A stretch of DNA of 54,787 nt from Acidimicrobiales bacterium (lineage in GTDB: Bacteria; Actinomycetota; Acidimicrobiia; Acidimicrobiales; Aldehydirespiratoraceae), in the NCBI GenBank assembly GCA_029246685.1, contig JAQWMR010000007.1, positions 1-54,787 of the forward strand. The letters are read 5' to 3'. Under the pieces are notes generated by a model. That model did no database searches. It was not told where the DNA came from and saw only the letters and a list, made by a program, of their open reading frames with translations. Within the stretch, counting starts at the first letter, position 1; the number at the start of each line of letters is the position of its first letter. Below are positions 37,800-54,656 of the stretch, piece after piece. The position numbers and the translations under genes were made by a program.

Positions 37800-37805
37800 T
37801 AGGGT
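37800..37805 (+). promoter_or_regulatory. Leaderless-type -10 (TAGGGT) for UGSC cassette 1
   Basis: TAGGGT is 6 nt before the ATG at 37812. UGSC cassette 2 has an equivalent element (TACTCT at 53044), so both cassettes appear to be transcribed in the same leaderless way. Confidence 0.55.
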
Positions 37806-37811: not shown

Positions 37812-39254
37812 ATGACCGACAAGCCTGCGCTGCCCGACGGCCTCGTGGCCGTTGTGAAGAAGGACTGCCCCACGTGCGTATTGGTGGCTCCGGTACTCGA
37901 GGACCTCGCGGCTCGGGCCGACCTCACCGTCATCACCCAGGACGACCCGACCTTCCCGGCCGATGCCGATTGGGTCGTGCACGACGACGACCTCGCCCTC
38001 TCGTGGCACCACGACATCGAGACCGTGCCCACCCTGCTGAAGGTCAAGGACGGTAGCGCCGATGACCTGACCGTCGGCTGGTCCCGCGAGCAGTGGGAGG
38101 AGTTCGCCGGTCTCGACGGGCTCGGAAAGGACCTTCCCGACTGGCGTCCTGGCTGCGGCAGCCTCAGCGTCGACCCGACCCTCACCGACGAACTGTCCGT
38201 TCGCTTCTCCGGCTCCTCTCTCACGAGTCGCCGGATCGAACTCGCCGCCCTGGAAGACGACTGGGAGGCCATGTGGGACCGGGGCTGGAGCGATGGCCTG
38301 CCGGTGGTCCCCCCAACCGAGGCCCGCGTGCTGCGCATGCTCGAGGGCACGACCCGCGCGGCCGACGACCTCGTCGCCGTCGTGCCCCCCGACCTCGTCG
38401 AGTGCACCGTTGAGAAGGTCGCCGTCAACGCGGTCATGGCCGGCTGCAAGCCGGAGTATCTCCCTGTGGTGATCGCCGCGCTCGAGGCCGCCTGCACCGA
38501 CGATTTCAACATGCACGGCCTGCTGGCCACGACGATGCCGGTCGGGCCGGTCCTGTTCGTGAACGGCCCGATCCGCAACGAGATCGGGATGAACTCCGGG
38601 CTCAACCTGCTCGGCCAGGGCAACCGGGCCAACTCGACGATCGGTCGGGCACTGCAACTCGTCATCCGCAATGTCGGAGGCGGCAAGCCCGGCGGTGTCG
38701 ACCGCGGCACGCAGGGCAACCCCTCGAAGTACGGGCTGTGTTTCGCTGAGGACGAGGAGGGTTCGCCGTGGGACAGCTACGCCGAGTCCCGCGGGTTCTC
38801 GAGCGATGTTTCCACCGTCACGCTCTTCCCCGGCGAGGGGCCACGGCTGCTCTTCGATCAGAAATCCCGCTCGCCTGAATCACTAACCAAGCACCTCGGC
38901 CAGATGCTCGTTCCGTATGCAAGCCCTCGCATGGTCATGCAGTTCGAGACGATTCTCGTGATGTCCCCGGAGCACATGGCTCGCTACCGCGACGCCGGCT
39001 GGGACCGGGCTCGCTTCCTCGAGGAGCTCAACGGCCACCTCCTGCTCAAGGGGTCCGACATCGTCGCCGGTGCTGACGGCATCGAGGAAGGCATGCCGGA
39101 GTTCGTCGCCGAGATGGACCTGCCCAAACACCCGCCGAACGGCATCCACGTCGTGCACGGCGGCAGTCATGCCGGGCTCTTCTCGTCGGCCATTGGTGGC
39201 TGGGTCACCGGCGAGATGGGTAGTGTCACGGTCACGAAGGAGATCACCCGATGA
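37812..39254 (+). CDS. UGSC-selenoprotein partner with N-terminal thioredoxin-like domain
   Basis: The 480-residue protein has two parts. Residues 1-~110 look like a thioredoxin fold with CPTC (Cys19, Cys22) and a cis-Pro-like TVPTLL (Pro73). Residues ~150-480 match the whole 352-residue protein at 53056. Shared blocks are RGWSDGLPVVPPT, AVNAVMAGCKPEYLPVV, VNGPIRNEIG, RANSTIGRAL, TQGNPSKYGLCFAEDE and HGGSHAGLF. Conserved Cys (AGC, LCF) and His suggest a redox or metal site. I know no biochemical function. Its stop overlaps the UGSC selenoprotein start (ATGA). The thioredoxin fusion suggests the pair exchanges electrons through thiol/selenol. Confidence 0.75.
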   Translation: MTDKPALPDGLVAVVKKDCPTCVLVAPVLEDLAARADLTVITQDDPTFPADADWVVHDDDLALSWHHDIETVPTLLKVKDGSADDLTVGWSREQWEEFAGLDGLGKDLPDWRPGCGSLSVDPTLTDELSVRFSGSSLTSRRIELAALEDDWEAMWDRGWSDGLPVVPPTEARVLRMLEGTTRAADDLVAVVPPDLVECTVEKVAVNAVMAGCKPEYLPVVIAALEAACTDDFNMHGLLATTMPVGPVLFVNGPIRNEIGMNSGLNLLGQGNRANSTIGRALQLVIRNVGGGKPGGVDRGTQGNPSKYGLCFAEDEEGSPWDSYAESRGFSSDVSTVTLFPGEGPRLLFDQKSRSPESLTKHLGQMLVPYASPRMVMQFETILVMSPEHMARYRDAGWDRARFLEELNGHLLLKGSDIVAGADGIEEGMPEFVAEMDLPKHPPNGIHVVHGGSHAGLFSSAIGGWVTGEMGSVTVTKEITR

Positions 39255-39772
39255 CCACCACTGTCCTCGACCCCACCGGTGAGCTGGCGCCCGAACAACG
39301 CGAGCGCGTCACCCGACCCGAGTCGCTCAACGGCCTCACCGTCGGACTCCTCGACATCTCCAAGCCGCGCGGCGACGTGTTCCTCAACCGCGTGGAGGAG
39401 AAGCTGACCGGCCTGGGCGCCACGGTGAAGCGATTCAAGAAACCCACCTTCACCAAGCCCGCCCCGGTGGACCTGCGCCACGAGATCGCGACGAGTTGCG
39501 ACGCGGTCATCGAAGCGCTCGCCGATTGAGGCAGCTGCACGACGTGCAGTGTGCACGACATCAACGATCTTGAACGCCGCGGCATCCCGGGAGTCTTCGT
39601 GGCCACCGTGGAGTTCGCCGACGCCGCCGTCGACCAATCGAAGTCGCTCGGCCTCGACGTAGCCCACGTCCTGACGGAGCATCCGATCCAGGACCGCACC
39701 GACGACGAGATGACGGCGATCGCCGATCAGGTAGTCGACGCACTCCTCGCGTCACTCACCGGCCCAGGCTGA
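39251..39772 (+). CDS. UGSC-motif selenoprotein, copy 1
   Basis: ATG at 39251 runs to TGA (39527-39529) and continues in frame to 39772, giving 173 residues with Sec93. The motif reads DUGSCTTCSVHD. The part after UGA (GSC...DLERRGIPGVFVATVEFADA then AVDQ) is conserved with the second copy (GSCSSGSVLDAVDFESRGLP), so it is true coding sequence. The family corresponds to the selenoproteins named for this UGSC motif. Their function is unknown; adjacent Sec, Cys94+2 and Cys99 imply redox chemistry. A hairpin meeting bacterial SECIS rules is at 39543-39557. The 3' end overlaps convergent mutY by 17 bp. Confidence 0.88.
39543..39557 (+). promoter_or_regulatory. Bacterial SECIS hairpin of UGSC copy 1
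   Basis: CGTGC and GCACG form a 5-bp stem with loop AGTGT. The loop G (39549) is 20 nt after the UGA, inside the usual 16-37 nt range and in the first two loop bases. The second UGSC gene has the same loop at the same distance. A competing hairpin CTGCAC/GTGCAG (39535-39549) also exists. Confidence 0.6.
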
Positions 39773-40613
39773 TCCGGTCGGCCTCCACGGCCAACAGCCC
39801 ATCATCTAGCAGCCCGGCCAACGTCCGTTCGGCGTGCTCGAGATCCTCGATCTCGAGCACGTTGCGCAAGTCTGCGACCGGGACGTCGGCCGCCCGAACC
39901 GCATCGACGAGTCGGCCTCGGAGCTGTCGATCCGACCCTTCGAACCGCGACTGCGGCGTGCTGACGCCGGCTGAGCCGGCAGCAGGATCCGCACCCTCCC
40001 CTTGCCAGTTGCAGTGCGCCCGCACAGGACACTCGCCGCATGCCGGCGCCCGCTTCTCGCAGACGAGCGCGCCTAGCTCCATGACCCCCTGGTTCCACAA
40101 CCAGGGGTGGTCGCCCGGGACGAGCGAGTCGGCGAGCGACTGCGCCTCGCGGGCCGTGAGCGAGCGACCGTGGACGCGGGCGAGCACCCGTCCGATGTTG
40201 GTGTCGATCGGCGCGACGTCGGCCTCGAACGCGAACGCGAGCACCGCCCGGGCGGTGTACGGACCTACACCGGGAAGCGCCATGAGTGCGACGAGATCGG
40301 CGGGAACCGTCCCGTCATGCCCTTCGGCGATCGCCGCGGCGGCCCGATGCAGATTGACCGCTCGCCGGTTGTAGCCGAGCCCGGCCCAGTAACGGATGAC
40401 GTCCGCAACGGGTGCGGCGGCGCACTGCTCCGGCGTCCGGAACTCCTCGAGAAATGCCGTCCACTTCGGAATGACTCGGCTGACCTGGGTCTGCTGGAGC
40501 ATCGTCTCGGCGACGAGGACCGCCCAGGGGTCCCTCGTTCGCCGCCACGGCAAGTCCCGTAGCGATGCATCGGCCCAGGTCAATAGGGTCGCGGCGAAGG
40601 GAGTTGGCGTCAT
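39756..40613 (-). CDS. mutY: A/G-specific adenine glycosylase MutY
   Basis: ATG at 40613 gives 285 residues. MutY removes adenine mispaired with 8-oxoguanine. It has DLPWRRTRDPWAVLVAETML then QQTQVSRVIP with the catalytic Glu, HhH LMALPGVGPYTARAV, the Asp in VAPIDTNIGRVLAR, and four Fe-S cysteines spaced C-x6-C-x2-C-x5-C (CEKRAPACGECPVRAHC). The C-terminal NUDIX-like 8-oxoG recognition domain of E. coli MutY is absent. A short other domain (LRGRLVDAVRAADVPVADLR) replaces it, as in many actinobacteria. The cluster would be supplied by the Suf system. TACGAT lies 8 nt upstream (40622-40627). Confidence 0.92.
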   Translation of the reverse strand: MTPTPFAATLLTWADASLRDLPWRRTRDPWAVLVAETMLQQTQVSRVIPKWTAFLEEFRTPEQCAAAPVADVIRYWAGLGYNRRAVNLHRAAAAIAEGHDGTVPADLVALMALPGVGPYTARAVLAFAFEADVAPIDTNIGRVLARVHGRSLTAREAQSLADSLVPGDHPWLWNQGVMELGALVCEKRAPACGECPVRAHCNWQGEGADPAAGSAGVSTPQSRFEGSDRQLRGRLVDAVRAADVPVADLRNVLEIEDLEHAERTLAGLLDDGLLAVEADRISLGR

Positions 40614-40621
40614 CCAGCGGG

Positions 40622-40627
40622 ATCGTA
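40622..40627 (-). promoter_or_regulatory. Leaderless-type -10 (TACGAT) for mutY
   Basis: On the minus strand TACGAT precedes the ATG at 40613 by 8 nt. Confidence 0.45.
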
Positions 40628-40696
40628 GGACACCTGCTCAGGCCTGCCGGGCGGCGCGCCGATGGTTCCTCTAGGGAGGCCGGTCGAAAGGCAGTG

Positions 40697-42406
40697 GTGA
40701 GCGTAGGGATCAAGCAACGCGGACTGGCCGAGTTCGAGCTCGGCCTATGGCGCCTGTTCTTCGAGATCCGCGTTGTCGGCCTCGGCATCTTGGGCGTTAT
40801 CGCGCTCGTCCCCGCGGCCGGCGTGGACCCGATCATCGGCGTCTTCATTCTTGGTTTCTCCGTCCCCGCCAACGCTGCCATGCGGGAGCTGATCACCAGA
40901 TGGCGGTTCATCCCGTGGTGGATGCCGATCATCGACGCCACCCTCTCGGCCGTCGCGATTCTCATTCAACCGTCGCTCGCTCCGATCGCTCTGCTGGTCA
41001 TGCTCGGGTCGACCAGCCAGGCGGCGACTGCAGGGTGTCGAACGACAGTCATCGCGACGCTCGTCGGCGCGCCGATCCTGTTCGTCACGATCGTGGCCAA
41101 GGACGTCGGCGACGGCGTCACCCAGCTGCTCGCGTACCTCGCCGTCTCCATCGGCGTGACCGTCTTCGTGGCGGTCATCTCCAACGCTGAACGCGACGGC
41201 CGCCGCAGCAACGAAGCGCTGCTCGACCTCAACCAGTTCAAAGAGGTCAACGACACCCTCGGCCACGACCAAGGCGACCGACTCCTCGCGATGGTGGCGG
41301 TGCGACTTCGCGAGTCGCTCCGGGCGGTCGACACCGTTGCCCGGCTCGGCGGCGACGAGTTCGCGGTGCTCTTGACCGACGACGTCTCGCCCCGTCGCAC
41401 GCTGCGCGCGGCTGAGCGCGTCCTCGCCTGCTTTGACGGGCCTCACGACATGGACGGCATGTCCCTTCAGTGCGGCGCTAGCCTCGGCGTTGCGATCTAC
41501 CCGGAGCATGGCGACGACGCCGAAGATCTTCGCAAACATGCCGACATCGCGATGTACACCGCGAAACCCCGAGGCGGCGGCGTCGCCGTCTACGACCCCG
41601 AACGGGATCGGCCGAACCTCGAACGCCTGACCCTCGTCGGTCAGCTTCGTCATGGACTCGACAACGCCGAGCTTCAGGTCCATTACCAGCCTGTGGTCGA
41701 CCTCTCGTCCGCCCGGGTTGTCCGTGTCGAGGCGCTCGTTCGCTGGAATCACCCTGTCCGCGGGCTGATCGGGCCGGCGGAGTTCATCGACATCGCCGAG
41801 GTGTCAGGCGTCATCCGACCCTTGACCCGCTGGGTGTTCGAACAGGCCGCGAATGACGTCGCGCGGTTGGAGACCGCCGGCCACCACCTCGAACTCGCCG
41901 TAAACATCTCGGTGCGAAATCTCTACGAGCCGGCGTTCGTCGACGCGATCCGCGGCGCGCTCGAGCGCAGAGGAATGACCGGCGACCGCATCGTGCTCGA
42001 ACTCACCGAAACGCAGGTCATGGACGATCCGCTCCTGGCCCACGGCGTCCTCGAACGGCTTCGCAACTTTGGCGTCCGCGGCTCGGTCGAAGACTTCGGA
42101 ACCGGCCACTCGAGCCTCTCGAACCTCCAGAGTCTTCCGCTGTCGGAGATCAAGATCGACAAGTCGTTCGTGCAGGCCATCGGCGACGGTGACGAGGCCG
42201 CGGCGACCATCGTGAAGTCGATCGTCTCACTCGGTCAGAACCTGGGCCTCGATGTGGTGGCGGAGGGCGTGGAGACGCCGTCGGCGCTCACCCGGCTGTC
42301 GATGCTCGGATGCGACCACGCGCAAGGCCATCTCCTCGCAACGCCACTCCCCTACGACGATCTCGTGGACTTCCTCGACGGAGCCCGCCACGGCGTCTCG
42401 ATCTAG
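40697..42406 (+). CDS. Membrane GGDEF-EAL protein with a shortened GGDEF domain
   Basis: GTG at 40697 (or 40694) gives about 569 residues. Four or five membrane helices (~20-165) come first, then a GGDEF domain and an EAL domain. GGDEF is intact as RLGGDEFAVLL (~216). However, the usual N-terminal GGDEF segment with DxLTGLxNR is missing: VISNAERDGRRSNEA runs straight into LLDLNQFKEVNDTLGHDQGD. About 35-40 residues seem deleted in frame, probably abolishing cyclase activity. The EAL domain keeps EALVRW, NISVRNL, ELTETQVMDD, EDFGTGHSSL, KIDKSF and AEGVET, so c-di-GMP hydrolysis is likely the remaining activity. Confidence 0.85.
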   Translation: MSVGIKQRGLAEFELGLWRLFFEIRVVGLGILGVIALVPAAGVDPIIGVFILGFSVPANAAMRELITRWRFIPWWMPIIDATLSAVAILIQPSLAPIALLVMLGSTSQAATAGCRTTVIATLVGAPILFVTIVAKDVGDGVTQLLAYLAVSIGVTVFVAVISNAERDGRRSNEALLDLNQFKEVNDTLGHDQGDRLLAMVAVRLRESLRAVDTVARLGGDEFAVLLTDDVSPRRTLRAAERVLACFDGPHDMDGMSLQCGASLGVAIYPEHGDDAEDLRKHADIAMYTAKPRGGGVAVYDPERDRPNLERLTLVGQLRHGLDNAELQVHYQPVVDLSSARVVRVEALVRWNHPVRGLIGPAEFIDIAEVSGVIRPLTRWVFEQAANDVARLETAGHHLELAVNISVRNLYEPAFVDAIRGALERRGMTGDRIVLELTETQVMDDPLLAHGVLERLRNFGVRGSVEDFGTGHSSLSNLQSLPLSEIKIDKSFVQAIGDGDEAAATIVKSIVSLGQNLGLDVVAEGVETPSALTRLSMLGCDHAQGHLLATPLPYDDLVDFLDGARHGVSI

Positions 42407-42412
42407 ATCTCC

Positions 42413-43627
42413 CTACCCGCCCGCGGGAGCAGGGGGCAGGTCGACAAGGTTCACCACGTCACCGAGCCGGCGGCCGACGACCTCAGCGGTGCGAGCGGCC
42501 GAGGCCGCCAGGGTGTCGGCGATCTCGGGCCGACCCGGTTCACCGATCGCGACGCGGATCACGTAGCCGTCGTGGCGGTCGACCCACGTCGGCACGTAGT
42601 CAACGCCGACCGCTTTGATCTCGCCAGCGTCGTTCTCGAGAAGCGTGACGATGCCGATCATGCCGTCCTGCGATGCGGTCACGCAGCAGTTGGCCGACTG
42701 GTTCGAGAGGAAGTTGCCGAGCCCGTAGACGACCCACTCGTCGCCCGAGATGTCGACCGGCTGCACGACATGGGCGTGGTGACCGATGACGAGGTCCACC
42801 TCGTCGCTCGGCAGGATCTCGGTCAGCCACTGCTCCTGCGCGCCAGACGGGGTGTGCTGGTACTCGTTGCCCCAGTGGAGGCTGACGACCACGAACTCTG
42901 CGCCCGCGTCTTTCGCCAACCCGGCTTCCAGGACGATCTGCTCGGGGTCGATCAGGTCCACCAGGTACTGCTCATCACTCGGCATCACGAAGCCGTTCAA
43001 TGAGTAGGTCGCTGAGATGTGGGCGACGGTGATGCCGTTGACCTCGTAGAGCACAGGCGCGAGATCGTGGTCCGTGTCACGAGCCATACCGGCCTGCGGA
43101 AAGCCGAGCTCCTCGAACACGTCGAGGGTGGAGTGCACGCCGTCGCTGCGCCGATCGAACGAGTGGTTCGAGGCCGTGCTGCACCCGTCGTAGCCGGCGT
43201 CGATCGCCGCCTCCACGAGCGCCCGCGGCGCATTGAAGACCGGATAGCCGGAAAGGTTGGTGTCGTCGCGAGAAACCGGCGACTCGACATGACAGATCGC
43301 GAGATCGGCCGCCGACAGGATCGGCCGGACCTCGTCGAACATCGGGCGAAAATCCCACCCCTCCTCGGCGTTGGCTGCCGCGGCGTTCGTGACCGGTGAG
43401 TGCGGGAGAAGGTCGCCGGTGAACGCTAGCGTGGCCGTACGGGGCGGCGGCGTCGTGGTTGTCGTGGTCGTGGACGTCGTGGTGGTGGTCGTGGTCGTCT
43501 CCGACACCGAGGCGACATCGGCATCCTCACCCTTCCCGACATCGGAGCCGGACGCCACGACCATGCCGGCTACGAAGATGGCGATGAAGAGCAGGCCCGC
43601 CAGCACGCGAACTCGGGTGGGGCTCAC
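42413..43627 (-). CDS. CapA-like (PGA_cap) metallophosphatase-fold lipoprotein/secreted protein
   Basis: GTG at 43627 gives 404 residues. A signal anchor (VLAGLLFIAIFVAGMVVASG) and a long Thr tract precede the CapA/PGA_cap domain. Motifs are FTGDLLPHSPV, SAADLAICHVESPVS, STASNHSFDRRSDGV, VSLHWGNEYQHTPS, VIGHHAHVVQPVDI and YGLGNFLSNQ, a calcineurin-like metal site. CapA acts in polyglutamate capsule handling in Bacillus; members elsewhere have unknown substrates. The start overlaps the stop of the upstream gene by GTGA, so the two are coupled. Confidence 0.85.
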   Translation of the reverse strand: MSPTRVRVLAGLLFIAIFVAGMVVASGSDVGKGEDADVASVSETTTTTTTTSTTTTTTTPPPRTATLAFTGDLLPHSPVTNAAAANAEEGWDFRPMFDEVRPILSAADLAICHVESPVSRDDTNLSGYPVFNAPRALVEAAIDAGYDGCSTASNHSFDRRSDGVHSTLDVFEELGFPQAGMARDTDHDLAPVLYEVNGITVAHISATYSLNGFVMPSDEQYLVDLIDPEQIVLEAGLAKDAGAEFVVVSLHWGNEYQHTPSGAQEQWLTEILPSDEVDLVIGHHAHVVQPVDISGDEWVVYGLGNFLSNQSANCCVTASQDGMIGIVTLLENDAGEIKAVGVDYVPTWVDRHDGYVIRVAIGEPGRPEIADTLAASAARTAEVVGRRLGDVVNLVDLPPAPAGG

Positions 43628-44412
43628 CTGAACAACTCCGGCGCGATCGGGCAGTCGACTCGGAAGCGAACCTCAGCCACCGCCATCAGACCGGAGGGTC
43701 CGACGAGCTTGTCGACGAGAGCGAGCGGCACGGCCTCCACCTCGTCGTCCCACGGATCCACATCGGCACTACGATCGGCGACGTACTCGTACATCCGGGT
43801 CGGGACGACTCGGCCCACGCCGGCCGCCAACCAGACCGGCGTTCCTTGTTGTGCGGCCACCGCAGCCGCAGCGAGCGACCCGGACCGGGCGAGAGCAGCC
43901 TCCGCATGCATGACCTCGGCTTCGAGCAGAACAAGATCGACGTCAGCCGCAGCCGCGCCCACACCCGCCGCGGGAACGTCGACCGCGACGTGGTCACGTG
44001 CATCCAGCTGCCCGATCAGCCCGTACCCCTCGCCGACCGTGTCGGCCACCAGCACTTCGACGTCGGGGCGTTGCAGAACGGCGTCGCCGCAGATCTCGGA
44101 GGCTCCGATCACGAGCACCGTGCTGTCCGCCGGCAACGCATGGGCGAGCTCCCGAGCGGTGGTGTCGCGTTCGAGCGCCTCGACGGCATCCCACGCCTCT
44201 GTGCCGGGGTCCGTGCCCGTCAGCATCCGAGCCGTGACCCAGAGCAGCGGACCACTCGTCGGCCGCCGTTCGATGAGCTGCCGACAAGCGGTGAGCAGCT
44301 CGACGGGATCATGCGCGAACGATGCGAGTGCGATCGCGGCTTCGCGCACGAGCGGCGCCGTCGGGACGTCGCCGGCCCGCGCGACATACCGGAGCCGCTC
44401 GATCGGGTGCAC
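43624..44412 (-). CDS. Protein resembling the eIF-2B alpha/ribose-1-phosphate isomerase family
   Basis: GTG at 44412 gives 262 residues. The N-terminal half is helical (LVREAAIALASFAHDPVELL). The C-terminal half has the fold pattern of IF-2B-like proteins: TVLVIGASEICGDAVLQRPD, VEVLVADTVGEGYGLIGQLD, DVDLVLLEAEVMHAEAALAR, QGTPVWLAAGVGRVVP. It lacks some catalytic residues I would expect in MtnA, so a substrate cannot be given. TACAGT is 7 nt upstream. It is followed directly by the CapA-like gene. Confidence 0.55.
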   Translation of the reverse strand: MHPIERLRYVARAGDVPTAPLVREAAIALASFAHDPVELLTACRQLIERRPTSGPLLWVTARMLTGTDPGTEAWDAVEALERDTTARELAHALPADSTVLVIGASEICGDAVLQRPDVEVLVADTVGEGYGLIGQLDARDHVAVDVPAAGVGAAAADVDLVLLEAEVMHAEAALARSGSLAAAAVAAQQGTPVWLAAGVGRVVPTRMYEYVADRSADVDPWDDEVEAVPLALVDKLVGPSGLMAVAEVRFRVDCPIAPELFR

Positions 44413-44419
44413 AACGGCG

Positions 44420-44425
44420 ACTGTA
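44420..44425 (-). promoter_or_regulatory. Leaderless-type -10 (TACAGT) for the IF-2B-like gene
   Basis: On the minus strand TACAGT precedes the GTG at 44412 by 7 nt. Confidence 0.45.
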
Positions 44426-44461
44426 TCGCCCCCGATGTGACCCGTTACGCGCCCCGTGCGG

Positions 44462-44467
44462 TAGCTT
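44462..44467 (+). promoter_or_regulatory. Leaderless-type -10 (TAGCTT) for the thioredoxin-fold gene
   Basis: TAGCTT precedes the GTG at 44476 by 8 nt, which favours that GTG over the next one at 44479. Confidence 0.4.
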
Positions 44468-44475
44468 TCTCCCCC

Positions 44476-44955
44476 GTGGTGACCGCAGCTCTCGACCTCG
44501 ATCTCCATCCGCTCGACGGCGATGCCCGTCCCCTCGGCGAATGGCTCACGACCTTCCCTCTCGTGCCGGTGATCCTCGACCCCTACACGCACGAGAGCGC
44601 CTGGCTTCTCGACACCTCCAAGCGGATCCTCGAGCACTTCGAAGAGGCCGATTGCCGAGTCTGCTGGATCCTCACGTGCTCGGCCGACGACGCCAAGCGA
44701 TTCCTCGGCCCCTACGCCGATGAGATGCTGGCCTTCGCCGACGAGAGCAAGGCGATCGTCAACACTCTCGGCGTGGAAGAGACTCCCGCCATCCTCCTGC
44801 TCCGCCAGGACGGCGCCGTGGTGGCAAAGGCCGAAGGCTGGGACCCCGACGCCTGGCGCGAAGTCGCCATCGAGATCGCCGATCTCACGAGCTGGAGCCG
44901 TCCGTTCGTGCCCGCTCCCGGCGACCCCGTGCCCTTCTCGGGCACAGCTGTCTAG
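44476..44955 (+). CDS. Thioredoxin-fold protein without a CxxC active site
   Basis: The 159 residues begin VVTAALDLDLHPLDGDARPL. The core has strand-helix elements of the thioredoxin fold, with a cis-Pro loop in GVEETPAILLLRQDGAVVAK and a final helix EVAIEIADLTSW. The usual CxxC after the first strand is absent: RVCWILTCSADDAKRFLG has Cys at other spacing (CWILTC). It may be a binding rather than catalytic relative. No family name is offered. Divergent from the IF-2B-like gene. Confidence 0.6.
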   Translation: MVTAALDLDLHPLDGDARPLGEWLTTFPLVPVILDPYTHESAWLLDTSKRILEHFEEADCRVCWILTCSADDAKRFLGPYADEMLAFADESKAIVNTLGVEETPAILLLRQDGAVVAKAEGWDPDAWREVAIEIADLTSWSRPFVPAPGDPVPFSGTAV

Positions 44956-44962
44956 ATCTTCG

Positions 44963-45226
44963 CTAGGCCGACAGGGCCCGCGCGTTCGCCCACTCGCGCC
45001 ATGTGTGCCGTAGCAGCAGCGGCACTCCGAGGACGACGATCGCGCCGTGAATCGCCGTGATCGCCCAGCCGGTCGCGGAGTTCGCCACGAGGGCCCGCTG
45101 CACGACCGTCAACGCGGCGACGACGGCGAAGACCACGCTCACGATCACAAGCCATGAGCGCTTCCATTCCGCGGGACTGAAGGCGTGGGCGATGCGGTCG
45201 ATCGTCATCTCCGCATCCCGGCTCAT
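44963..45226 (-). CDS. Two-helix membrane protein of unknown function
   Basis: ATG at 45226 gives 87 residues. A short polar N-terminus (MSRDAEMTIDRIAHAFSPAE) precedes two membrane helices (WLVIVSVVFAVVAALTVVQ and WAITAIHGAIVVLGVPLLL), ending in basic and aromatic residues. TAGCCT lies 6 nt before this ATG, supporting it over the ATG at 45208. Divergent from fumarase with only 32 bp between starts. Confidence 0.65.
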   Translation of the reverse strand: MSRDAEMTIDRIAHAFSPAEWKRSWLVIVSVVFAVVAALTVVQRALVANSATGWAITAIHGAIVVLGVPLLLRHTWREWANARALSA

Positions 45227-45232
45227 CTCGGC

Positions 45233-45238
45233 AGGCTA
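45233..45238 (-). promoter_or_regulatory. Leaderless-type -10 (TAGCCT) for the two-helix protein
   Basis: On the minus strand TAGCCT precedes the ATG at 45226 by 6 nt. Confidence 0.5.
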
Positions 45239-45246
45239 GCGACCGG

Positions 45247-45252
45247 TAGCGT
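45247..45252 (+). promoter_or_regulatory. Leaderless-type -10 (TAGCGT) for fumarase
   Basis: TAGCGT precedes the ATG at 45259 by 6 nt. With the opposing element at 45233 it fits in a 32-bp intergenic region. Confidence 0.5.
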
Positions 45253-45258
45253 GAGCCC

Positions 45259-47255: not shown

Positions 47256-48769
47256 CAGATCGGCGCCCCCGGCGCAACGAAGGGCCATGGACGCGACTGC
47301 TCCACGTGGCGCGCTAGATCCAGCAGCAATGCGTCCTCGTGGTGTCGGCCGATGACCTGCATTCCGATCGGAAGTCCTCCTACATCTCCGACGGGAATCG
47401 AGACTGCCGGGTTCCCGGAAAGATTGGCGGGCATCGTGAGTGCGCCCATGTCGAGCAGCTCCGGCGATCCCTTGGTGCCTGCCGACAGCAACCGCTGAGG
47501 GGTCTTCGGGGCGAAGCCGCTCACGGCACGAGCAGCTTTGAGCACACCCGAAAAAGCTCGCTGAATTGCTGTGTTGCCGCGGGCGTAGTCGATGAAGGTC
47601 TTCGCATCGCTACTCATCCCGTCGGCTGCGGGAAACGCCGGACCGGGATTGGACGAGGTGATCACGAAGTCGGCTTGCTCGAACAGCTCGGCCATCGCCG
47701 TGTTGGCCCGGCGGCGAACCATCTCGGCCTCCGCCGCGACCCGCATGTTGAAGAGGTTCTCGGACAGTTGCACGCCGACGCGGATCTCGTCGGTGAGGTC
47801 GTAGGCGCAGTCCGGCCATCGGTCGCCCAGCTCGCCGTAGAGACTCGAGATGTTTCCCATCATCCACTCGCCACCCATGCGAGGGATGTCGACCGGCAGG
47901 TCGAGGCGCACCAGTCCCAGGTCGGCGACGAGCGCGTCAGCGGCTTCGTCCACCACCGCCCGTGCCGCGGCGTCGACCGCTACCCCGCCGAACGTCGGGT
48001 CGATCACGACGGTGCGTCCCCGCAGGTCGTGCGATCCGAGGAGGGCCTCCCACCCTTCGACCCTCGGGAGACTGGTGGGGTCGTGCGCATCGTGACCGGC
48101 GGTGACGTCGTAGTAGCGAGCCGCGTCACGCACTGACCGGGCCAGACAACCGAGCACGACCGTGTGCGGGTTGAGCGAGGTGTGGGGACCACGAGGAATG
48201 CGCCCGTAAGTCCCCTTCATCCCGACGAGCCCGTTGTAGCCGGCCGGAATGCGGATCGAGCCGCCGCCATCGCCGCCACAGGCCAGAGGTAGCAGCCCAC
48301 CAGCGACCGCGGCCGCGCTGCCTCCGGACGATCCGCCGGCACTCTTCGTCGGATCCCATGCGTTGCCGGTGACGCCGTTGATCCTCGTGACGCTGACATT
48401 CAGCCCACCGAACTCACTCGCCGTCGTGGAGCCGACCGGCACAACACCAGCCGACTTTACCCGCTGCACCATCGTGGTGTCGTACGCGCCGATCCGGTCC
48501 TTGAAGGCAAGCGACGCCTCGGTGTACGGCCACCCCTCGACTTGTTCGAGCTCCTTGATGCCAAACGGCAGTCCGCCGAACGGCAACGAGAGATCGGCGG
48601 TGGCCGTAAGCTCACGGGCCCGATCGAGATCGAGATGAGCGAACGCGTTGAGATCGCTGGCCTCGATCGCTGCGATGACGGCATCGAGTTCCTCGACGGG
48701 CGACCGCTCCCCGGCGCGGAACGCATCGACGAGCGAGCACGCGTCTTCGAGCCACGGCGTGTCTCCCAT
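47255..48769 (-). CDS. Amidase signature family protein
   Basis: The 504-residue protein has the Ser-cisSer-Lys triad. The catalytic Lys lies in LPFGIKELEQVEGWPYTEAS. The Gly/Ser-rich signature is DPTKSAGGSSGGSAAAVAGG, with GGDGGGSIRIPAGYNGLVGM containing the nucleophile Ser. The C-terminal PAVSIPVGDVGGLPIGMQVI then GRHHEDALLLDLA is typical. It hydrolyses amides; a GatA role is unlikely because no gatB/gatC is nearby. It starts 2 bp after the sulfatase stop. Confidence 0.9.
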   Translation of the reverse strand: MGDTPWLEDACSLVDAFRAGERSPVEELDAVIAAIEASDLNAFAHLDLDRARELTATADLSLPFGGLPFGIKELEQVEGWPYTEASLAFKDRIGAYDTTMVQRVKSAGVVPVGSTTASEFGGLNVSVTRINGVTGNAWDPTKSAGGSSGGSAAAVAGGLLPLACGGDGGGSIRIPAGYNGLVGMKGTYGRIPRGPHTSLNPHTVVLGCLARSVRDAARYYDVTAGHDAHDPTSLPRVEGWEALLGSHDLRGRTVVIDPTFGGVAVDAAARAVVDEAADALVADLGLVRLDLPVDIPRMGGEWMMGNISSLYGELGDRWPDCAYDLTDEIRVGVQLSENLFNMRVAAEAEMVRRRANTAMAELFEQADFVITSSNPGPAFPAADGMSSDAKTFIDYARGNTAIQRAFSGVLKAARAVSGFAPKTPQRLLSAGTKGSPELLDMGALTMPANLSGNPAVSIPVGDVGGLPIGMQVIGRHHEDALLLDLARHVEQSRPWPFVAPGAPI

Positions 48770-48771
48770 GC

Positions 48772-50214
48772 TCAGCCCCGATCACCGAGGTCGTATTCCG
48801 CCATGTAGTACGGGTGAGTCGGGTCGTAGAACGTGAGCGGCTGTGGGTCATCGACCTCGCCCTTGGGACGCACATCCGCTCCGTGCGAGTCGGTGATCCC
48901 GTCGCCGAGATCAGACCGGGCACCGTCGAGCCGGGCCTGCAGGTCGGCGACGATCTCGGGGTGCTGCGCCGCGAGATCCGTCGTCTCACCGATGTCCGCC
49001 TCCAGGTCGTAGAGCTCGAGCATCGTCTCGACGTCGCCGAGGACGCTGCCCTTCGCAACGTGGAGCTTCCACTTCCCCACCCGGACGGCCTCGAGGTTCG
49101 GGCCCCGGTAGTAGAAGAAGGCCTCGTGCGGCGACTCGTCGGTGTCGCCTCGAAGCAGCGCATCGAGATCTCGCCCATCAACGGTCCGGTCGGTCGGTAC
49201 GTCGGCCCCGCACCATCCCGCGATCGTCGGGTAGAGATCCATTGCCGTGGTGACGGCCGACGCGGTCGCACCCGAAGCCACGTCGCCAGGCCACCGCACG
49301 ATGCACGGCACCCGCTGACCGCCCTCCCACGTCGTTCCCTTCTTCGCTCGCAGTGGAGCGTTGCTGCCCTCGCCCTCCCGAGCGAGAGCACCGTTGTCGC
49401 TCGTGAAGATGACGACGGTGTCGTCCGTCAGGCCGAGTGCCTCGAGTTCGTGGAGCAGGACATCGAGCGCCCAATCGATGCAACGGACGGCAGCCCCATA
49501 GGACCCGTTGCGCGACTCCCCCATGAATCGGGGCTGGACGTAGATCGGCAGATGGACGTAGAGATGCGCGAAGTAGAGGAAGAACGGTTCGTCCTGCTTC
49601 TCCCGCATGAACCGCACCGACTCCTGCAGGTAGCGCTCCGTCAGCGCGGCTTGATCCGGCTGTTCCTCCTGCACCTCCTGGTCGAGCATCAACGGCAACG
49701 GCGGGTAGTCGCCCTCCTGCAGCTCGATCCCCAGATGCTCCGTCATCTGCTCACGGAACTCGATCGGGATCCCCGTGCCCTGGCGGCCCATGTCGTTGCT
49801 GTACGGCAGGCCGTACCAGTGATCGAACCCGTGCTCCGTGGGCAGGAACTCCGGCTGATCGCCGCAATGCCACTTGCCGACCATCTGGGTCGAGTAGCCG
49901 GCGTTCTTGAGCAGCCGAGCGATCGTGATCTCCGAGGGATTCAGCCCCCACCGATGACCAGGGAAGAGCACATGGGCTCGACCGAAGGTCTCGAACCCAA
50001 TCCGATTCGGATAGCAGCCGGTCAACATCGCACCCCGACTCGGCGTGCAGATCGGCGAGGCGACGTAGAAGTCGGTGAGCCGCATTCCTTCGTCGGCCAG
50101 CCCGTCGATCGCCGGCGTGTCGTGAACCTCGCTGCCGTAGCAACCGAGGTCGCCGTAGCCCAGATCGTCGCAATTGATCAGGATGACGTTGGGTGTCTCG
50201 GCGGTGCGCGGCAT
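48772..50214 (-). CDS. Type I sulfatase
   Basis: ATG at 50214 (MPRTAETPNVILINCDDLGY) gives 480 residues without a signal peptide. The formylglycine motif is complete (SPICTPSRGAMLTG, C-x-P-S-R). Metal ligands are DD in NCDDLGYGDLGCYG and DN in VIFTSDNGAL, and KGTTWEGGQRVPCIVRWPG is the conserved Lys block. The Cys needs conversion to formylglycine by a separate enzyme not seen here. It would release sulfate from an organic ester of unknown identity. TAGGTT is 8 nt upstream (50223-50228). The amidase gene follows immediately. Confidence 0.9.
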   Translation of the reverse strand: MPRTAETPNVILINCDDLGYGDLGCYGSEVHDTPAIDGLADEGMRLTDFYVASPICTPSRGAMLTGCYPNRIGFETFGRAHVLFPGHRWGLNPSEITIARLLKNAGYSTQMVGKWHCGDQPEFLPTEHGFDHWYGLPYSNDMGRQGTGIPIEFREQMTEHLGIELQEGDYPPLPLMLDQEVQEEQPDQAALTERYLQESVRFMREKQDEPFFLYFAHLYVHLPIYVQPRFMGESRNGSYGAAVRCIDWALDVLLHELEALGLTDDTVVIFTSDNGALAREGEGSNAPLRAKKGTTWEGGQRVPCIVRWPGDVASGATASAVTTAMDLYPTIAGWCGADVPTDRTVDGRDLDALLRGDTDESPHEAFFYYRGPNLEAVRVGKWKLHVAKGSVLGDVETMLELYDLEADIGETTDLAAQHPEIVADLQARLDGARSDLGDGITDSHGADVRPKGEVDDPQPLTFYDPTHPYYMAEYDLGDRG

Positions 50215-50222
50215 GGCCGCCG

Positions 50223-50228
50223 AACCTA
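50223..50228 (-). promoter_or_regulatory. Leaderless-type -10 (TAGGTT) for the sulfatase
   Basis: On the minus strand TAGGTT precedes the ATG at 50214 by 8 nt and overlaps the stop codon of the thioesterase gene. Confidence 0.4.
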
Positions 50229-51020
50229 GTTGGCGGGGTCGCGTGGGTCGATCAACAAGCTCTTCATCGAGCGCCCGATCGACGACGTCTGGTCGAACAG
50301 CTGAGCGTCCGTGGAGCCGAAGCCGCCCGGGTTGACTCGGACGAGGGCTGCGCTTCCGATCCAGTCGCCCACCGGGACGCGATGAAACTGCATCGACAGA
50401 TCCGGGTTCACCGAAATGTGGGTGTTGAAGTCCATGATCGACCCGGCGCTCGGGATCATGTCGGCGGCAGCCGCGGCAAACGTCATCGGCTGTGTCGGTT
50501 CGCCGAGCACGAACGGGACGTCGAGCTTCACCCAACTGACCGCACGGCCCGGCTCTGTCTCATCCTCCCGACGTCGCATCGTGAAGTTGTCCACGAAATC
50601 CGGACCGCCGACCATCTTGTTGATGTTGTCCAGCTCGTCCGGTCCGACCGGAGGCTCGTCCTCTGGCCAGTCCGGAACCCGGTCCGGCGGCACGACCGAC
50701 TCGTCGATACGGATGCGGATGGCCGTCGAGCGAGCGACGATCTCACCGTCGACCTCGAAACTGACGGCGAGCGACTGCACTCGCTTGCCGTCTCGGAGGA
50801 TCTCGGCCGTCACTCGCGTCGGCCCCATTGGCACCTTTCGACTCAGGTCGACCGACATGCGCGTCAACATCATCGGCTGAGCAGACGGCATCATCTCGAC
50901 CGCTCGGGCGATCAGTCCCGTGACAGCACCGCCGTGCTGCACGCCAGGGAACCAGGGGCCGGCCGCAGTCGGCTGCGGGATCAGGACGTCGCCGTCGGGG
51001 ATGAAAACTGCCTCGATCAT
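50226..51020 (-). CDS. Thioesterase-family (double hotdog) protein
   Basis: ATG at 51020 overlaps the fetB stop (ATGA). The 264 residues show two hotdog halves as in TesB-like acyl-CoA thioesterases. GPWFPGVQHGGAVTGLIARA is followed by MLTRMSVDLSRKVPMGPTRV and AEILRDGKRVQSLAVSFEVD. Then PFVLGEPTQPMTFAAAAADM and MDFNTHISVNPDLSMQFHRV come in the second half. The acyl substrate cannot be told. Co-transcribed downstream of the FetAB-type genes. Confidence 0.8.
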   Translation of the reverse strand: MIEAVFIPDGDVLIPQPTAAGPWFPGVQHGGAVTGLIARAVEMMPSAQPMMLTRMSVDLSRKVPMGPTRVTAEILRDGKRVQSLAVSFEVDGEIVARSTAIRIRIDESVVPPDRVPDWPEDEPPVGPDELDNINKMVGGPDFVDNFTMRRREDETEPGRAVSWVKLDVPFVLGEPTQPMTFAAAAADMIPSAGSIMDFNTHISVNPDLSMQFHRVPVGDWIGSAALVRVNPGGFGSTDAQLFDQTSSIGRSMKSLLIDPRDPAN

Positions 51021-51823
51021 GGCTGGGACGCTGCCTTCTCCACGAGGACGAGACGGTGATCCTTCGTGAACAGTCGGCGGGTCAACCCGAGCGCCATCAC
51101 CGCCGCGGTCGTCGATACGGACCCAAGCACGAGATACATGACCGCTACTTGTACCCGAACAGCCTCGATCGGTTCGACGCCGGCAAGGATCAAACCGGTC
51201 ATCGCCCCGGGCAGCGCGATCAAGCCGACCGTCTTGGTTGTCTCGATCTGGGGCACGAGCCCGGTGCGCAACGCCTCTCGAAGATGAGGCGCGAATGCGT
51301 CGTGCGATGACAGGCCGAGGGCGAGCCGCGCTTCGATCAGATCCCGGTAGTCGCGCACCTCGGCAACCAGGCGCCGGGACACAACAACCGTCGCCGTCAT
51401 CGAATTGCCGACCATCATCCCGGCGATCGGCACGATTGCCCGACCGGTGGGTTCGAAGACTCGCAACCCGAACAGCACGCCGAGCGTCACCGCGGCCGCA
51501 GCCGCGAACGACAACAGCGCGAGCGGGATCACATTCGGCACCTCGGGTGCACGACGACGGACCGTCCACGCGGCCACAACGACCATCAGCACGACCCAGA
51601 TCCACGTGAAGATGAGCGGATCGTCGCCGTCGACCACGATGCGGAGAGCGAATCCGACGATCAGCAACTGCACCAGCGCCCGCGCCGCCGCCACGAGCAG
51701 ATCCTTCTCGAGACCGAGCCGGCGCACGACCGACAGCACGAGGGCGACGGCGATGAGGATTCCGGAGATGGCGAGCCCGTCGAGGCCAATGTCTGCAAGA
51801 GCAATGTCCGCGAGTTCGTTCAC
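51017..51823 (-). CDS. fetB: FetB-type (UPF0014) membrane permease
   Basis: GTG at 51823, behind GGTGGAGGAG, overlaps the ATPase stop (GTGA) and gives 268 residues. About seven membrane helices are visible. The family motifs ARALVQLLIVGFALRIVVDG, VPIAGMMVGNSMTATVVVSR, EARLALGLSS and GLIALPGAMTGLILAGVEP are those of the YbbM/FetB group. FetAB in E. coli is an iron exporter that protects from peroxide stress, so iron homeostasis is the best guess. The in-frame region upstream of 51823 is a shadow of the ATPase gene. Confidence 0.88.
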   Translation of the reverse strand: MNELADIALADIGLDGLAISGILIAVALVLSVVRRLGLEKDLLVAAARALVQLLIVGFALRIVVDGDDPLIFTWIWVVLMVVVAAWTVRRRAPEVPNVIPLALLSFAAAAAVTLGVLFGLRVFEPTGRAIVPIAGMMVGNSMTATVVVSRRLVAEVRDYRDLIEARLALGLSSHDAFAPHLREALRTGLVPQIETTKTVGLIALPGAMTGLILAGVEPIEAVRVQVAVMYLVLGSVSTTAAVMALGLTRRLFTKDHRLVLVEKAASQP

Positions 51824-52467
51824 GACTCCTCCACCACCCGGCCGGCGTCGAGCCGGATGACCCGATCGGCGAGCCGCTCGATCTGACCCGAATCGTGCGA
51901 CACCCAGATCCAACCCAGCTGCATCGGGCTTTCGGGCGACGTGAACCGCTTGGCAAGCGTCTCGATCACCTCGGTCGCCTCCGGGTCGAGCGACGAAGTC
52001 GGCTCGTCCGCCAGAATCAACTCCGGCCCCGTGGCGATCGTACGGGCGAGGCACACCCGCTGCTTCTCACCGCCCGAGAGCGTGGAGGCCTCCCGGGTCA
52101 GCAGGTCGGCATCGAGGGACATGAGGTTGCACAGGTCCGCCCCGGTCTCTTCATCGAGATCGATCGCACCGATGCGCAGGTTGTCCAGCACCGTTCCCGG
52201 CGCGACCGCAGGCGTCTGGAAGACCATGCCGACCTCGCGGCGATGGAGCAGCACATCGACGTCGTCGAGTGGCGTGCCCTGCCAGGACACCGTGCCCTCG
52301 TCCGGCACATCGAGCCGGTTCAGCAACCTGAGCAGCGTGGACTTGCCGGAACCGGACGCGCCAGCGAGAACGGTGATGCCCGAGTCGCCGATCTCGAGAG
52401 CCACGCCGTCGAGCCGACGACGCCCGTCACCCTCGACCACGATCCCCGATAGTTCGAACCCGCTCAC
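51820..52467 (-). CDS. fetA: FetA-type ABC transporter ATPase
   Basis: This 215-residue ATPase has Walker A AGASGSGKSTLLRLLNRLD, a Q-loop in GMVFQTPAVAPGTVLDNL, signature TLSGGEKQRVCLARTIA, Walker B ELILADEPTSSLDPEATEVI and an H-loop in WIWVSHDSGQIER. Adjacent FetB supplies the permease, so the pair forms a FetAB-like exporter. It overlaps the PNPOx-family gene by 4 bp upstream and fetB downstream. Confidence 0.88.
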   Translation of the reverse strand: MSGFELSGIVVEGDGRRRLDGVALEIGDSGITVLAGASGSGKSTLLRLLNRLDVPDEGTVSWQGTPLDDVDVLLHRREVGMVFQTPAVAPGTVLDNLRIGAIDLDEETGADLCNLMSLDADLLTREASTLSGGEKQRVCLARTIATGPELILADEPTSSLDPEATEVIETLAKRFTSPESPMQLGWIWVSHDSGQIERLADRVIRLDAGRVVEES

Positions 52468-53006
52468 CAGTGCATCATGCTGGAGATCCAGTGCGTGATC
52501 TCCTCGTCCTGGTCGTTGCTGTGGAGGTGCCGGGGCGGCTGGGCAAATGTCTCGCAGGGGCGCAGCCGAAGAACAACCCGGTTCTCCTTCTCTGCCATGT
52601 CCTGCACGAACGGTCGCGCGTCCTCGCCGAGCGGGTCACCCGACATCCGGCCGGCCACCGCCATCATCACGTCGACCACCAGCTCCGGATCGTCGTCGAC
52701 CACGGCATCGCAGTACACCTGCAGGTAACCGACCGGCCACTGCTCGTCGAGTACACACAGGCTTGCTTTGCCGAGCCGCTCGACAACCTGCGCCTTGGCC
52801 CGCCCGGCCATCGTCGACACGAGAAGCTTGTCTTCCGTGGTGGGCACGTAGTACACGATCGACATCGCCGGGCCGTCCGCCCGTCGGTTCGTCCCGAACA
52901 CACATGTCCGGCGGGTCCGCACGAACGTGCGGCGCTCCTCGACAGTCATGTCTCGGTCGGTCGGGATGACGAGCGGGTCGTCACTCAGCGGCAGCAGCTC
53001 AGGCAC
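52464..53006 (-). CDS. PNPOx/F420-type split-barrel protein
   Basis: GTG at 53006 gives 180 residues. The pyridoxamine-5'-phosphate-oxidase-like split barrel shows FVRTRRTCVFGTNRRADGPA then MSIVYYVPTTEDKLLVSTMA, followed by GRAKAQVVERLGKASLCVLD and YLQVYCDAVVDDDPELVVDV. Such actinobacterial proteins bind FMN, F420 or heme and act as oxidoreductases; the cofactor here is unknown. TACGAT is 7 nt upstream. It heads the unit PNPOx, fetA, fetB, thioesterase and is divergent from UGSC cassette 2. Confidence 0.8.
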   Translation of the reverse strand: MPELLPLSDDPLVIPTDRDMTVEERRTFVRTRRTCVFGTNRRADGPAMSIVYYVPTTEDKLLVSTMAGRAKAQVVERLGKASLCVLDEQWPVGYLQVYCDAVVDDDPELVVDVMMAVAGRMSGDPLGEDARPFVQDMAEKENRVVLRLRPCETFAQPPRHLHSNDQDEEITHWISSMMHW

Positions 53007-53013
53007 GGCGCAG

Positions 53014-53019
53014 ATCGTA
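53014..53019 (-). promoter_or_regulatory. Leaderless-type -10 (TACGAT) for the PNPOx-family gene
   Basis: On the minus strand TACGAT precedes the GTG at 53006 by 7 nt. Confidence 0.5.
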
Positions 53020-53043
53020 CCCACGACCCGCTGCCCCACGCCC

Positions 53044-53049
53044 TACTCT
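53044..53049 (+). promoter_or_regulatory. Leaderless-type -10 (TACTCT) for UGSC cassette 2
   Basis: TACTCT precedes the GTG at 53056 by 6 nt. The same hexamer precedes the TlpA-like selenoprotein gene (6213). Confidence 0.55.
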
Positions 53050-53055
53050 CCGAGC

Positions 53056-54114
53056 GTGCAGGTAGACGACCCCTGGGCCGCGATCGAGGCGTGCTACGAC
53101 GCCGGCTGGACCGACGGCCTCCCCGTCGTGCCACCCACCCGCGACCTCGCCGACGCCATGGTCGCGGCGGGACCGTGGGCCGCGGACGACGTTCTGCTGC
53201 ACGAGCCGTCCCGCGACCTGTCCGTCACTGCGGAGATGGCCGCGATAAACGCGGTAATGGCCGGCTGTCGACCCGAGTACTTTCCCGTCGTCGGTGCGGT
53301 CGTGCGAGCAATGGGCGACCCCCGCTTCGCTCTCCACGCGGTCATTACGAGCACTGGCGGCGCGGCCGTCCTCATCGCCGTCAACGGGCCGATTCGCGAC
53401 GAGTTGGGAATCCACTACAAGGAGAACCTGTTCGGACCGGGCTTCCGTGCGAACGCCACCATCGGGCGCACGATCCGTCTCATTCTGCGCAACTGCCTCG
53501 ACGCCATCCCCGGAACGCTGGACAAGAGCACGCAGGGCTGGGCCGGCAAATACTCCATGTGCTTCGGCGAGGACGAAGCGTCCAGTCCATGGGGCCCGTT
53601 CCACACGAGCCGTGGGTTCGACGCCTCACAGAGCACCGTGACGATCATGGCAGCCGAGTCCGGCCACAACGTGCTCAACCACGCGTCATCCGATGCCGAA
53701 GGGCTGCTCGCAACGTTCGCCGACACGATGGCCGCCCTCGGCTCGTTCAGCGCCGGGCGCTCATTGCTCGTCTTCGCTCCCGAGCACGCCCGCAAGATCA
53801 GCGAGTCCGGCTGGAGCCGGGAGCAGTGCCAGGCGTTCCTCTACGAACACGCGGCCCGATCGCTGGCCGAACTGAAGCAGGGCGGGAAAGTGGAGGCGGC
53901 CGGCCAAACGAGCGGCACAGACGCCCACCAATGGTTCGCTTCGGACCCGACCGTCGATGCCGGCGACGACGACATCGTCGTGCACCGTGGCATTCGGCCA
54001 GACGACATCCACCTCATGGTCGGCGGCGGCGACGCCGGGGGCCACTCGGCGTTCTTCCCCACCTGGAGCAGGACACGTAGCGTGGCGCTCATCACCGAGG
54101 AGATCCCATCGTGA
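53056..54114 (+). CDS. UGSC-selenoprotein partner, copy 2 (no thioredoxin domain)
   Basis: GTG at 53056 (VQVDDPWAAIEACYDAGWTD) gives 352 residues that match residues ~150-480 of the protein at 37812. Shared features are GWTDGLPVVPPT, AAINAVMAGCRPEYFPVVGA, VNGPIRDELG, RANATIGRTIRLILRN, TQGWAGKYSMCFGEDEASSP and a C-terminal GGGDAGGHSAFFPTW. A conserved Cys (MAGC) and MCF Cys are kept, but no CxxC is present. The function is unknown. The stop overlaps the UGSC copy 2 start (GTGA), so the partnership with a UGSC selenoprotein is conserved in both copies. Confidence 0.75.
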   Translation: MQVDDPWAAIEACYDAGWTDGLPVVPPTRDLADAMVAAGPWAADDVLLHEPSRDLSVTAEMAAINAVMAGCRPEYFPVVGAVVRAMGDPRFALHAVITSTGGAAVLIAVNGPIRDELGIHYKENLFGPGFRANATIGRTIRLILRNCLDAIPGTLDKSTQGWAGKYSMCFGEDEASSPWGPFHTSRGFDASQSTVTIMAAESGHNVLNHASSDAEGLLATFADTMAALGSFSAGRSLLVFAPEHARKISESGWSREQCQAFLYEHAARSLAELKQGGKVEAAGQTSGTDAHQWFASDPTVDAGDDDIVVHRGIRPDDIHLMVGGGDAGGHSAFFPTWSRTRSVALITEEIPS

Positions 54115-54656
54115 GTGTCACGCTGCTCGACCCCACTCGTCGACCCGATCGAGCGCCGACGCCGGAGGCGTCCCGCCCCGCCAACCTCGACGGCGCCGTG
54201 CTCGGCCTCATCAACAACGGCAAGACCTGGGGCCGCGAGATCCTCGACCGCGTCGCCGCCAATCTGCGCGAGCGCCACGAGATCGCCGACGTCGTCACGA
54301 TCACCAAACTCGGCTACTCCGTGCCGCTCGGCGAGGACGAGGCGGCCGACTTCGCCCGCCAGGCCACGGCCGTTATCGCAGCTATCGGTGATTGAGGCAG
54401 CTGTTCGTCGGGCAGTGTGCTCGACGCCGTGGACTTCGAGTCCCGAGGCCTGCCCGCCGCGGCCGTCATCACCGAGCCGTTCGTCGGCGCCTGTAAGGCG
54501 ATGGCTCGGCTCCGCGGGTTCGAGGACTATCCCCTCGTGGTCGCTCCCCATCCGGTGACGAGCCTCGACCTCGCGGGCGCTGAAGCGCTGGCCTATGCAC
54601 TGACCGACGCCATAGAGGCACGGCTCACCCACCCCACGGCGGGGTTAGATCTCTGA
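54111..54656 (+). CDS. UGSC-motif selenoprotein, copy 2
   Basis: GTG at 54111 runs to TGA (54393-54395) and on in frame to 54656, giving 181 residues with Sec95 in DUGSCSSGSVLD. It is clearly paralogous to the protein at 39251: SVTLLDPTRRPDRAPTPEAS and LDGAVLGLINNGKTWGREIL before UGA, DFESRGLPAAAVITEPFVGA and VVAPHPVTSLDL after it. Conservation on both sides of TGA supports read-through as selenocysteine. Here Cys99-type residue of copy 1 is replaced, so only Sec and the GSC cysteine are common to both. SECIS at 54406-54426. The 3' end overlaps an HNH gene fragment on the other strand. Confidence 0.88.
54406..54426 (+). promoter_or_regulatory. Bacterial SECIS hairpin of UGSC copy 2
   Basis: CGTCGGGC and GCTCGACG form an 8-bp stem (one G-U) with loop AGTGT. 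The loop G (54415) is 20 nt after the UGA, exactly as in copy 1 although the stem bases differ, which suggests selection on the structure. Confidence 0.7.

Follow-up and report, generated by a model that had tools for sequence, protein, structure and literature searches.

The 54,787-base contig JAQWMR010000007.1 of an Acidimicrobiales bacterium carries two paralogous cassettes, in which the gene for a protein here called the partner is followed by the gene for a selenoprotein of the UGSC family. Sequence comparison gives good support to partner and UGSC protein being a co-inherited, obligate-looking pair. It gives similarly good support to selenocysteine (Sec) as a sound reading of the in-frame TGA in the UGSC genes. 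UGSC proteins are likely related, at a distance, to the Sec-bearing domain of GrdB/PrdB, the selenoprotein B of glycine, sarcosine, betaine and D-proline reductase. The pairing and the selenocysteine are firmer than the reaction and substrate, which we infer. The window analyzed here is the entire contig (C3), from a draft genome of 3.8 Mb in 20 contigs that is 94% complete.

The original prediction, made from the letters of the window, described two paralogous cassettes with shared sequence blocks, a UGSC frame crossing an in-frame TGA, a 4-bp gene overlap within each cassette and a leaderless-type -10 element ahead of each. All of these are present (Table 1). The two partners are 40% identical across 262 residues of a common domain. 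The overlap is ATGA in cassette 1 and GTGA in cassette 2. Each UGSC gene has a single in-frame TGA, inside TGA-GGC-AGC-TG(C/T) and ahead of the gene's own terminal TGA. The putative -10 elements are TANNNT boxes exactly 6 nt 5' of each partner start codon; TANNNT begins at 0.077% of window positions, giving a chance of about 0.3% per gene for a 4-base slot.

By Pfam score, the two small proteins are members of the UGSC-containing selenoproteins, with which they share the UxxC motif and the presence of Sec or Cys. They match PF24696 with 146.3 bits (cassette 1) and 159.8 bits (cassette 2), against a cut-off of 25. The NCBIfam equivalog NF041046 (cut-off 125) scores 151.9 bits for cassette 1, above the cut-off, and 116.6 bits for cassette 2, below it. 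Both cassettes have the UGSC motif with a Sec codon and a hairpin like the bacterial selenocysteine insertion sequence (SECIS), and relatives include Cys replacements.

In the draft genome the partner domain and the UGSC domain each occur four times, and 4/4 are adjacent. Pairing was further surveyed in two sets: 296 genomes of the window's phylum, searched for the partner with alignment A1 at E 1e-10 and for UGSC above its cut-off, and the best 80 of 586 relatives from a partner-profile scan of named genomes. In the phylum sample, the partner occurs in 23/296 genomes and UGSC in 22/296, and 22/22 UGSC genomes contain the partner (Fisher P 2e-32); 34 of 39 partner matches have a UGSC gene on the same strand within 1.5 kb. 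The named loci have titles from Acidimicrobiia, Mycobacterium, Chloroflexi, Proteobacteria, Rokubacteria, Binatia, Acidobacteria and others. At 72/80 of them a UGSC gene lies on the same strand within 1 kb, after the partner in 63 and before it in 9; four of the eight without such a neighbor sit at contig ends. In both sets, then, the partner is mostly found with a UGSC gene alongside, the opposite of what the original prediction had named as telling against it. The four pairs in one genome and the pairing across phyla place the association beyond chance. Two loci have multiple copies: L096 (1021-10600, betaproteobacterial) holds, within 10 kb, three copies of the partner domain together with three UGSC genes of the TGA type, and L132 (6001-8870) has a single UGSC gene followed by three partner domains in a row.

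The two proteins also occur as one chain. Eight distinct UGSC-first single-frame fusions were found (L008, L053, L047, L046, L069, L111, L121 and L119, the last at 5410-7059), with hosts that include Smithella, a betaproteobacterium, Rokubacteria, Burkholderiales and the window's own genome. Seven of the eight have one internal TGA; L046, whose UGSC match is weak, has none. Variant motifs are UDGC in L047 and UGAC in L069. The fourth copy in the draft genome is itself such a natural fusion (contig C10:489128-490831, minus strand; L008 301-2046), a single open frame with UGSC first and then the partner, in which the Sec TGA is the only internal stop. L069 (1057-2634) is a diverged fusion, with UGAC for UGSC and Gly for Cys71 in its partner part.

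Distances among the partners track those among the UGSC proteins, with a matrix correlation of r 0.91 over 80 pairs (L055-L134 and the draft genome), in part because of shared species history; 500 permutations reach at most 0.11. UGSC and partner have the same nearest neighbor in 51/80 pairs. The 4-bp overlap is found in only 18/85 pairs, so the original prediction's claim that it is conserved does not hold. Its broader claim of a two-component redox system is supported in that the pair looks obligate, includes a selenocysteine protein and is most likely redox. We consider it very unlikely that the pairing reflects only shared ancestry of one co-moving operon block without joint function. The pair does lack recurrent neighbors, as expected of a self-contained mobile block, but it persists while its gene order varies, eight distinct fusions of it exist, and in the phylum sample 22/22 UGSC genomes also have the partner.

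The codon at the Sec site is TGA in 70 and TGC in 2 of the 72 partner-adjacent UGSC genes at the named loci, and the phylum-sample loci contribute four further TGC or TGT forms. Where the motif could be placed in a non-TGA gene, the residue at this position is Cys in 6/6, and the region 3' of the TGA is conserved; one Cys form comes from the cultivated Candidimonas nitroreducens (L125); the original prediction had asked whether the residue would prove random and the downstream part unconserved.

A bacterial SECIS is a hairpin soon after the UGA with a G in its apical loop, a definition that draws in part on a figure legend in PMC1088965. In 99 distinct TGA-type genes, ungapped 7-bp stems were scanned across 60 nt from the TGA. 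Among all placements, pairing is best for a stem from +15 to +31 with a 3-nt loop at +22. Its cells are paired in 91.5% of cases, compared to 82.9% when the 3' letters are dealt anew (sd 0.6, maximum 84.6%). At the same position, 38% are paired in 6 Cys-type genes, a comparison that somewhat favors the TGA genes because the placement was picked on them. Both-sided changes occur in three pairs (C-G to G-C; T-A to G-T or A-T; G-C to C-G), and the loop starts with G in 97/99 TGA-type genes, as in a bacterial SECIS. In 52 TGA-type genes, folding energy has a mean z of -1.46 at +3, the sole dip among tested offsets; at those up to -6 and from +15 onward, z lies between -0.46 and +0.42.

The draft genome encodes SelB, with SelA next to it, as well as SelD and tRNA-Sec, all above cut-off. 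SelD (contig C11:14505-15428, minus strand) has one in-frame TGA and is probably a selenoprotein itself. In the phylum sample, tRNA-Sec is matched in 18/18 genomes with TGA-form UGSC and in 188/296 overall, some of the 188 close to the cut-off (hypergeometric P 2e-4); the four genomes with only non-TGA forms have a match in two and none in two. The hairpin of the TGA-type genes and the presence of SelA, SelB, SelD and tRNA-Sec support reading the TGA as selenocysteine. That it is instead a true stop, with the downstream frame a separate small gene or relic and no selenoprotein made, is barely credible. In favor of a stop, TGA terminates in the standard code, and no RNA family was detected when the window was scanned with Rfam at gathering cut-offs. 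Against a stop stand the paired changes in the hairpin, Cys at the TGA position in relatives, the conserved region 3' of it, the complete Sec machinery, and the prevalence of TGA among partner-adjacent UGSC genes.

The partner matches no Pfam or NCBIfam family above cut-off in profile scans, and a fold search gave no confident match, also with regard to a fold shared with fumarase / Toblerone-fold enzymes. Its family is large: 7,918 relatives among 8,000 candidates scored in one search. The AlphaFold2 model of the cassette 2 partner has a predicted local distance difference test score (pLDDT) of 90.3. Two cysteines are near-invariant in three alignments: Cys71 (70/70, 114/120 and 122/122 rows) and Cys169 (65/70, 120/120 and 113/122 rows). 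What the original prediction called a large uncharacterized protein is, in cassette 1, the common domain preceded by an N-terminal thioredoxin-like domain with a CPTC motif. This N-terminus matches the PDB thioredoxin 2o85 (E 4.7e-4), and PF00085 scores 12.9 bits, below the cut-off of 23.5. Among the matches listed, 121/121 proteins (the query and 120 relatives) have thioredoxin-like and partner domains together, with CxxC located by pattern in 111/121. The fusion occurs at 13 loci besides the window's, in 13 phylum-sample genomes, with UGSC next door in each. Judged from these matches, partners in the window's phylum often carry a thioredoxin-like domain.

That UGSC and GrdB/PrdB are likely related emerges from profile comparison. 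An NCBIfam search with 40 UGSC proteins matched glycine reductase selenoprotein B in 8/40 (best 9.7e-6) and PrdB in 2/40. A profile alignment of UGSC with pooled GrdB and PrdB-like genes places Sec on Sec (P 6.7e-7, probability 92%), compared to P 0.21 for a reversed decoy and 0.02 for the best of 60 shuffles. Taken apart, GrdB and PrdB-like genes give P 6.3e-5 and 9.2e-4, with probabilities of 65% (4 genes) and 23% (11 genes). UGSC resembles the last domain of GrdB/PrdB, with a shared E..GIPT block after the Sec, and corresponds to that domain only. UGSC occurs without GrdE/PrdA, the substrate-type subunits: the 22 UGSC genomes and 13 PF09338 genomes among the 296 are disjoint, and the draft genome (94% complete) has no PF09338 match at E 0.001. 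The draft genome also has a short PrdB-like selenoprotein (contig C10:231066-231488, minus strand; L149) with the frame LLTPV-TGA-PLCTRT; other genomes of the order have forms resembling it.

In available passages on known systems, the protein B selenocysteine of glycine reductase is thought to take carbon from a bound substrate, with electrons from thioredoxin; D-proline reductase is proposed to cut a C-N bond with a Sec/pyruvoyl protein pair; and cutting of the C-F bond of fluoroacetate by a GrdB-type relative has been proposed (PMC10298544, PMC10838667). The fluoroacetate reductase farB/farE likewise combines a Sec subunit with a substrate subunit, and cleavage of a carbon-halogen bond has been proposed for it. 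Its substrate subunit, however, is presented as homologous to GrdE (PMC10838667), and the window's partner shows no such kinship. By analogy, the cassettes likely follow GrdB/PrdB logic but are assembled from different components. The Sec subunit is likely descended from GrdB/PrdB, the partner would be of the substrate type, and one branch has a thioredoxin-like domain built in.

We tentatively propose, at somewhat less than even confidence, that UGSC and partner together make up a single reductase fed by thioredoxin. The partner would hold a small substrate, and the selenol would attack it and cut a carbon-X bond (X = N, S or halogen). The two proteins would touch and share one active site. 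A selenolate at a helix start would attack the substrate, as proposed for GrdB/PrdB. The UGSC Cys, or Cys71/Cys169 of the partner, would free the product and leave a selenenylsulfide or disulfide, which fused or free thioredoxin would reset. Given the partner's conserved R138, N133 and K165, a small carboxylic acid would be a fitting substrate.

Several points weigh against this proposal. The NCBIfam matches are weak, and an unrelated napF model reaches 9.2e-5 in one UGSC member. The Pfam GrdB model PF07355 is not matched at E 0.1 in the 40 UGSC proteins, and the profile match is strong only with GrdB and PrdB-like genes pooled. The partner shows no kinship to GrdE/PrdA (12 GrdE relatives, probability 0.2%). 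Cys71 is Ala in 6/120 relatives and Cys169 is missing in 5/70. The thioredoxin-like domain is matched in 0/80 named loci by tblastn at E 1e-8, so within this analysis the window's phylum is the only one in which it is fused to the partner. A survey of neighboring genes found none recurring enough to name a substrate. The one model of a fused UGSC-partner protein, with a predicted template modelling score (pTM) of 0.89, was built on only 3 fused rows of 63. Passages of PMC10298544 say that D-proline reductase works without thioredoxin and term the carbon-attack steps of these reductases hypothetical. Lastly, the UxxC motif and conserved cysteines are just as compatible with a simple disulfide or peroxide reductase.

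In the main rival reading, UGSC would be an oxidoreductase of a general thiol/peroxide type. The partner would serve as its client or regulator, being an enzyme with a Cys71/Cys169 disulfide that UGSC or thioredoxin reduces. We hold this rather unlikely, though it would account for the UxxC motif, the near-invariant cysteines and the thioredoxin-like domain fused to the partner, and in the available passages of PMC2398784 the UGSC fold is deemed likely thioredoxin-like and its motif redox. More doubtful still, at a slim chance, is a self-processing pyruvoyl partner like PrdA/GrdE, cut before Cys71, whose pyruvoyl binds an amine substrate that UGSC reduces. PrdA and GrdE form pyruvoyl from Cys, to judge from the title of Bednarski 2001 in the references of PMC10838667, and Cys71 is invariant in alignment A3 (70/70); the Ala replacements at Cys71 and the absent profile kinship to GrdE/PrdA speak against such processing.

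On the opposite strand, open frames of 421 and 607 aa (window 36262-38657, minus strand) lie ahead of cassette 1 and across its start. Metallo-hydrolase-like and flavin-reductase-like stretches seem, by eye, to be present in them, and the remainder is probably high-GC overlap.

Table 1. Coordinates of features of the two cassettes in the window.
Feature	Position	Strand	Basis or remark
TAGGGT, leaderless-type -10 element (putative)	37800..37805	+	6 nt ahead of ATG; read from sequence
Partner gene, cassette 1, 480 aa	37812..39254	+	Open reading frame and own-genome paralogues
Thioredoxin-like N-terminal domain of cassette 1 partner; CPTC = residues 19-22 (37866-37877)	37812..38240	+	PDB thioredoxin 2o85 match
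Common partner domain, cassette 1	38235..39251	+	Profile match, 449.1 bits
UGSC selenoprotein gene, cassette 1, 173 aa, Sec at residue 93	39251..39772	+	PF24696, NF041046
In-frame TGA, cassette 1, read as selenocysteine	39527..39529	+	Cys in non-TGA relatives
Bacterial SECIS-type hairpin, cassette 1, apical loop 39549-39551	39542..39558	+	6/7 pairs form
TACTCT, leaderless-type -10 element (putative)	53044..53049	+	6 nt ahead of GTG; read from sequence
Partner gene, cassette 2, 352 aa, GTG start, common domain only	53056..54114	+	Open reading frame and paralogues; AlphaFold2 model
Cys71 codon (NAVMAGC) of cassette 2 partner, directly ahead of predicted helix	53266..53268	+	Alignment rows
Cys169 codon of cassette 2 partner	53560..53562	+	Alignment rows
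UGSC selenoprotein gene, cassette 2, 181 aa, Sec at residue 95	54111..54656	+	PF24696
In-frame TGA, cassette 2, read as selenocysteine	54393..54395	+	Sequence
Bacterial SECIS-type hairpin, cassette 2, apical loop 54415-54417	54408..54424	+	7/7 pairs form

UGSC-containing proteins are in print (PMC2398784, PMC13188914, PMC9312934, PMC7539508), and available passages report UGSC-motif selenoproteins in genomes whose tRNA-Sec anticodon is CUA (PMC5330540). In the Global Ocean Sampling (GOS) water metagenomes they were among the most frequent selenoproteins, with 255 found (PMC2398784). The same 2008 survey reports that UGSC can be fused to a domain labeled only 'Unknown_1' (PMC2398784, Figure S1A), which, likened by description only, is likewise a UGSC domain joined to a conserved domain of unknown function. 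Unknown_1 may be the window's partner domain; the partner may therefore not be wholly undescribed. The family entry lists no function, and open-licence accounts on UGSC, GrdB/PrdB, glycine/proline reductase and selenoprotein B, covered mostly as listings, gave neither a paired, co-inherited partner gene nor a link to GrdB/PrdB. The original prediction that the UGSC family is known and that its function and partner are not described therefore agrees with the published passages as to family and function, but perhaps not as to the partner. It did not include the UGSC-GrdB/PrdB kinship, the fused thioredoxin-like domain or the natural UGSC-partner fusions.

Beside glycine and D-proline reductase, the pair may, more tentatively than the reductase itself, represent a third class of selenol substrate reductase, found in Actinomycetota, Chloroflexi, Proteobacteria and other phyla. 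It would have a minimal Sec subunit (UGSC) and a substrate subunit of no assigned fold, with thioredoxin sometimes built in. Through its co-inherited partner, its one-chain natural fusions and its likely kinship to known chemistry, UGSC changes from an unknown selenoprotein into part of a proposed two-component enzyme that can be purified and whose class of reaction can be tested.

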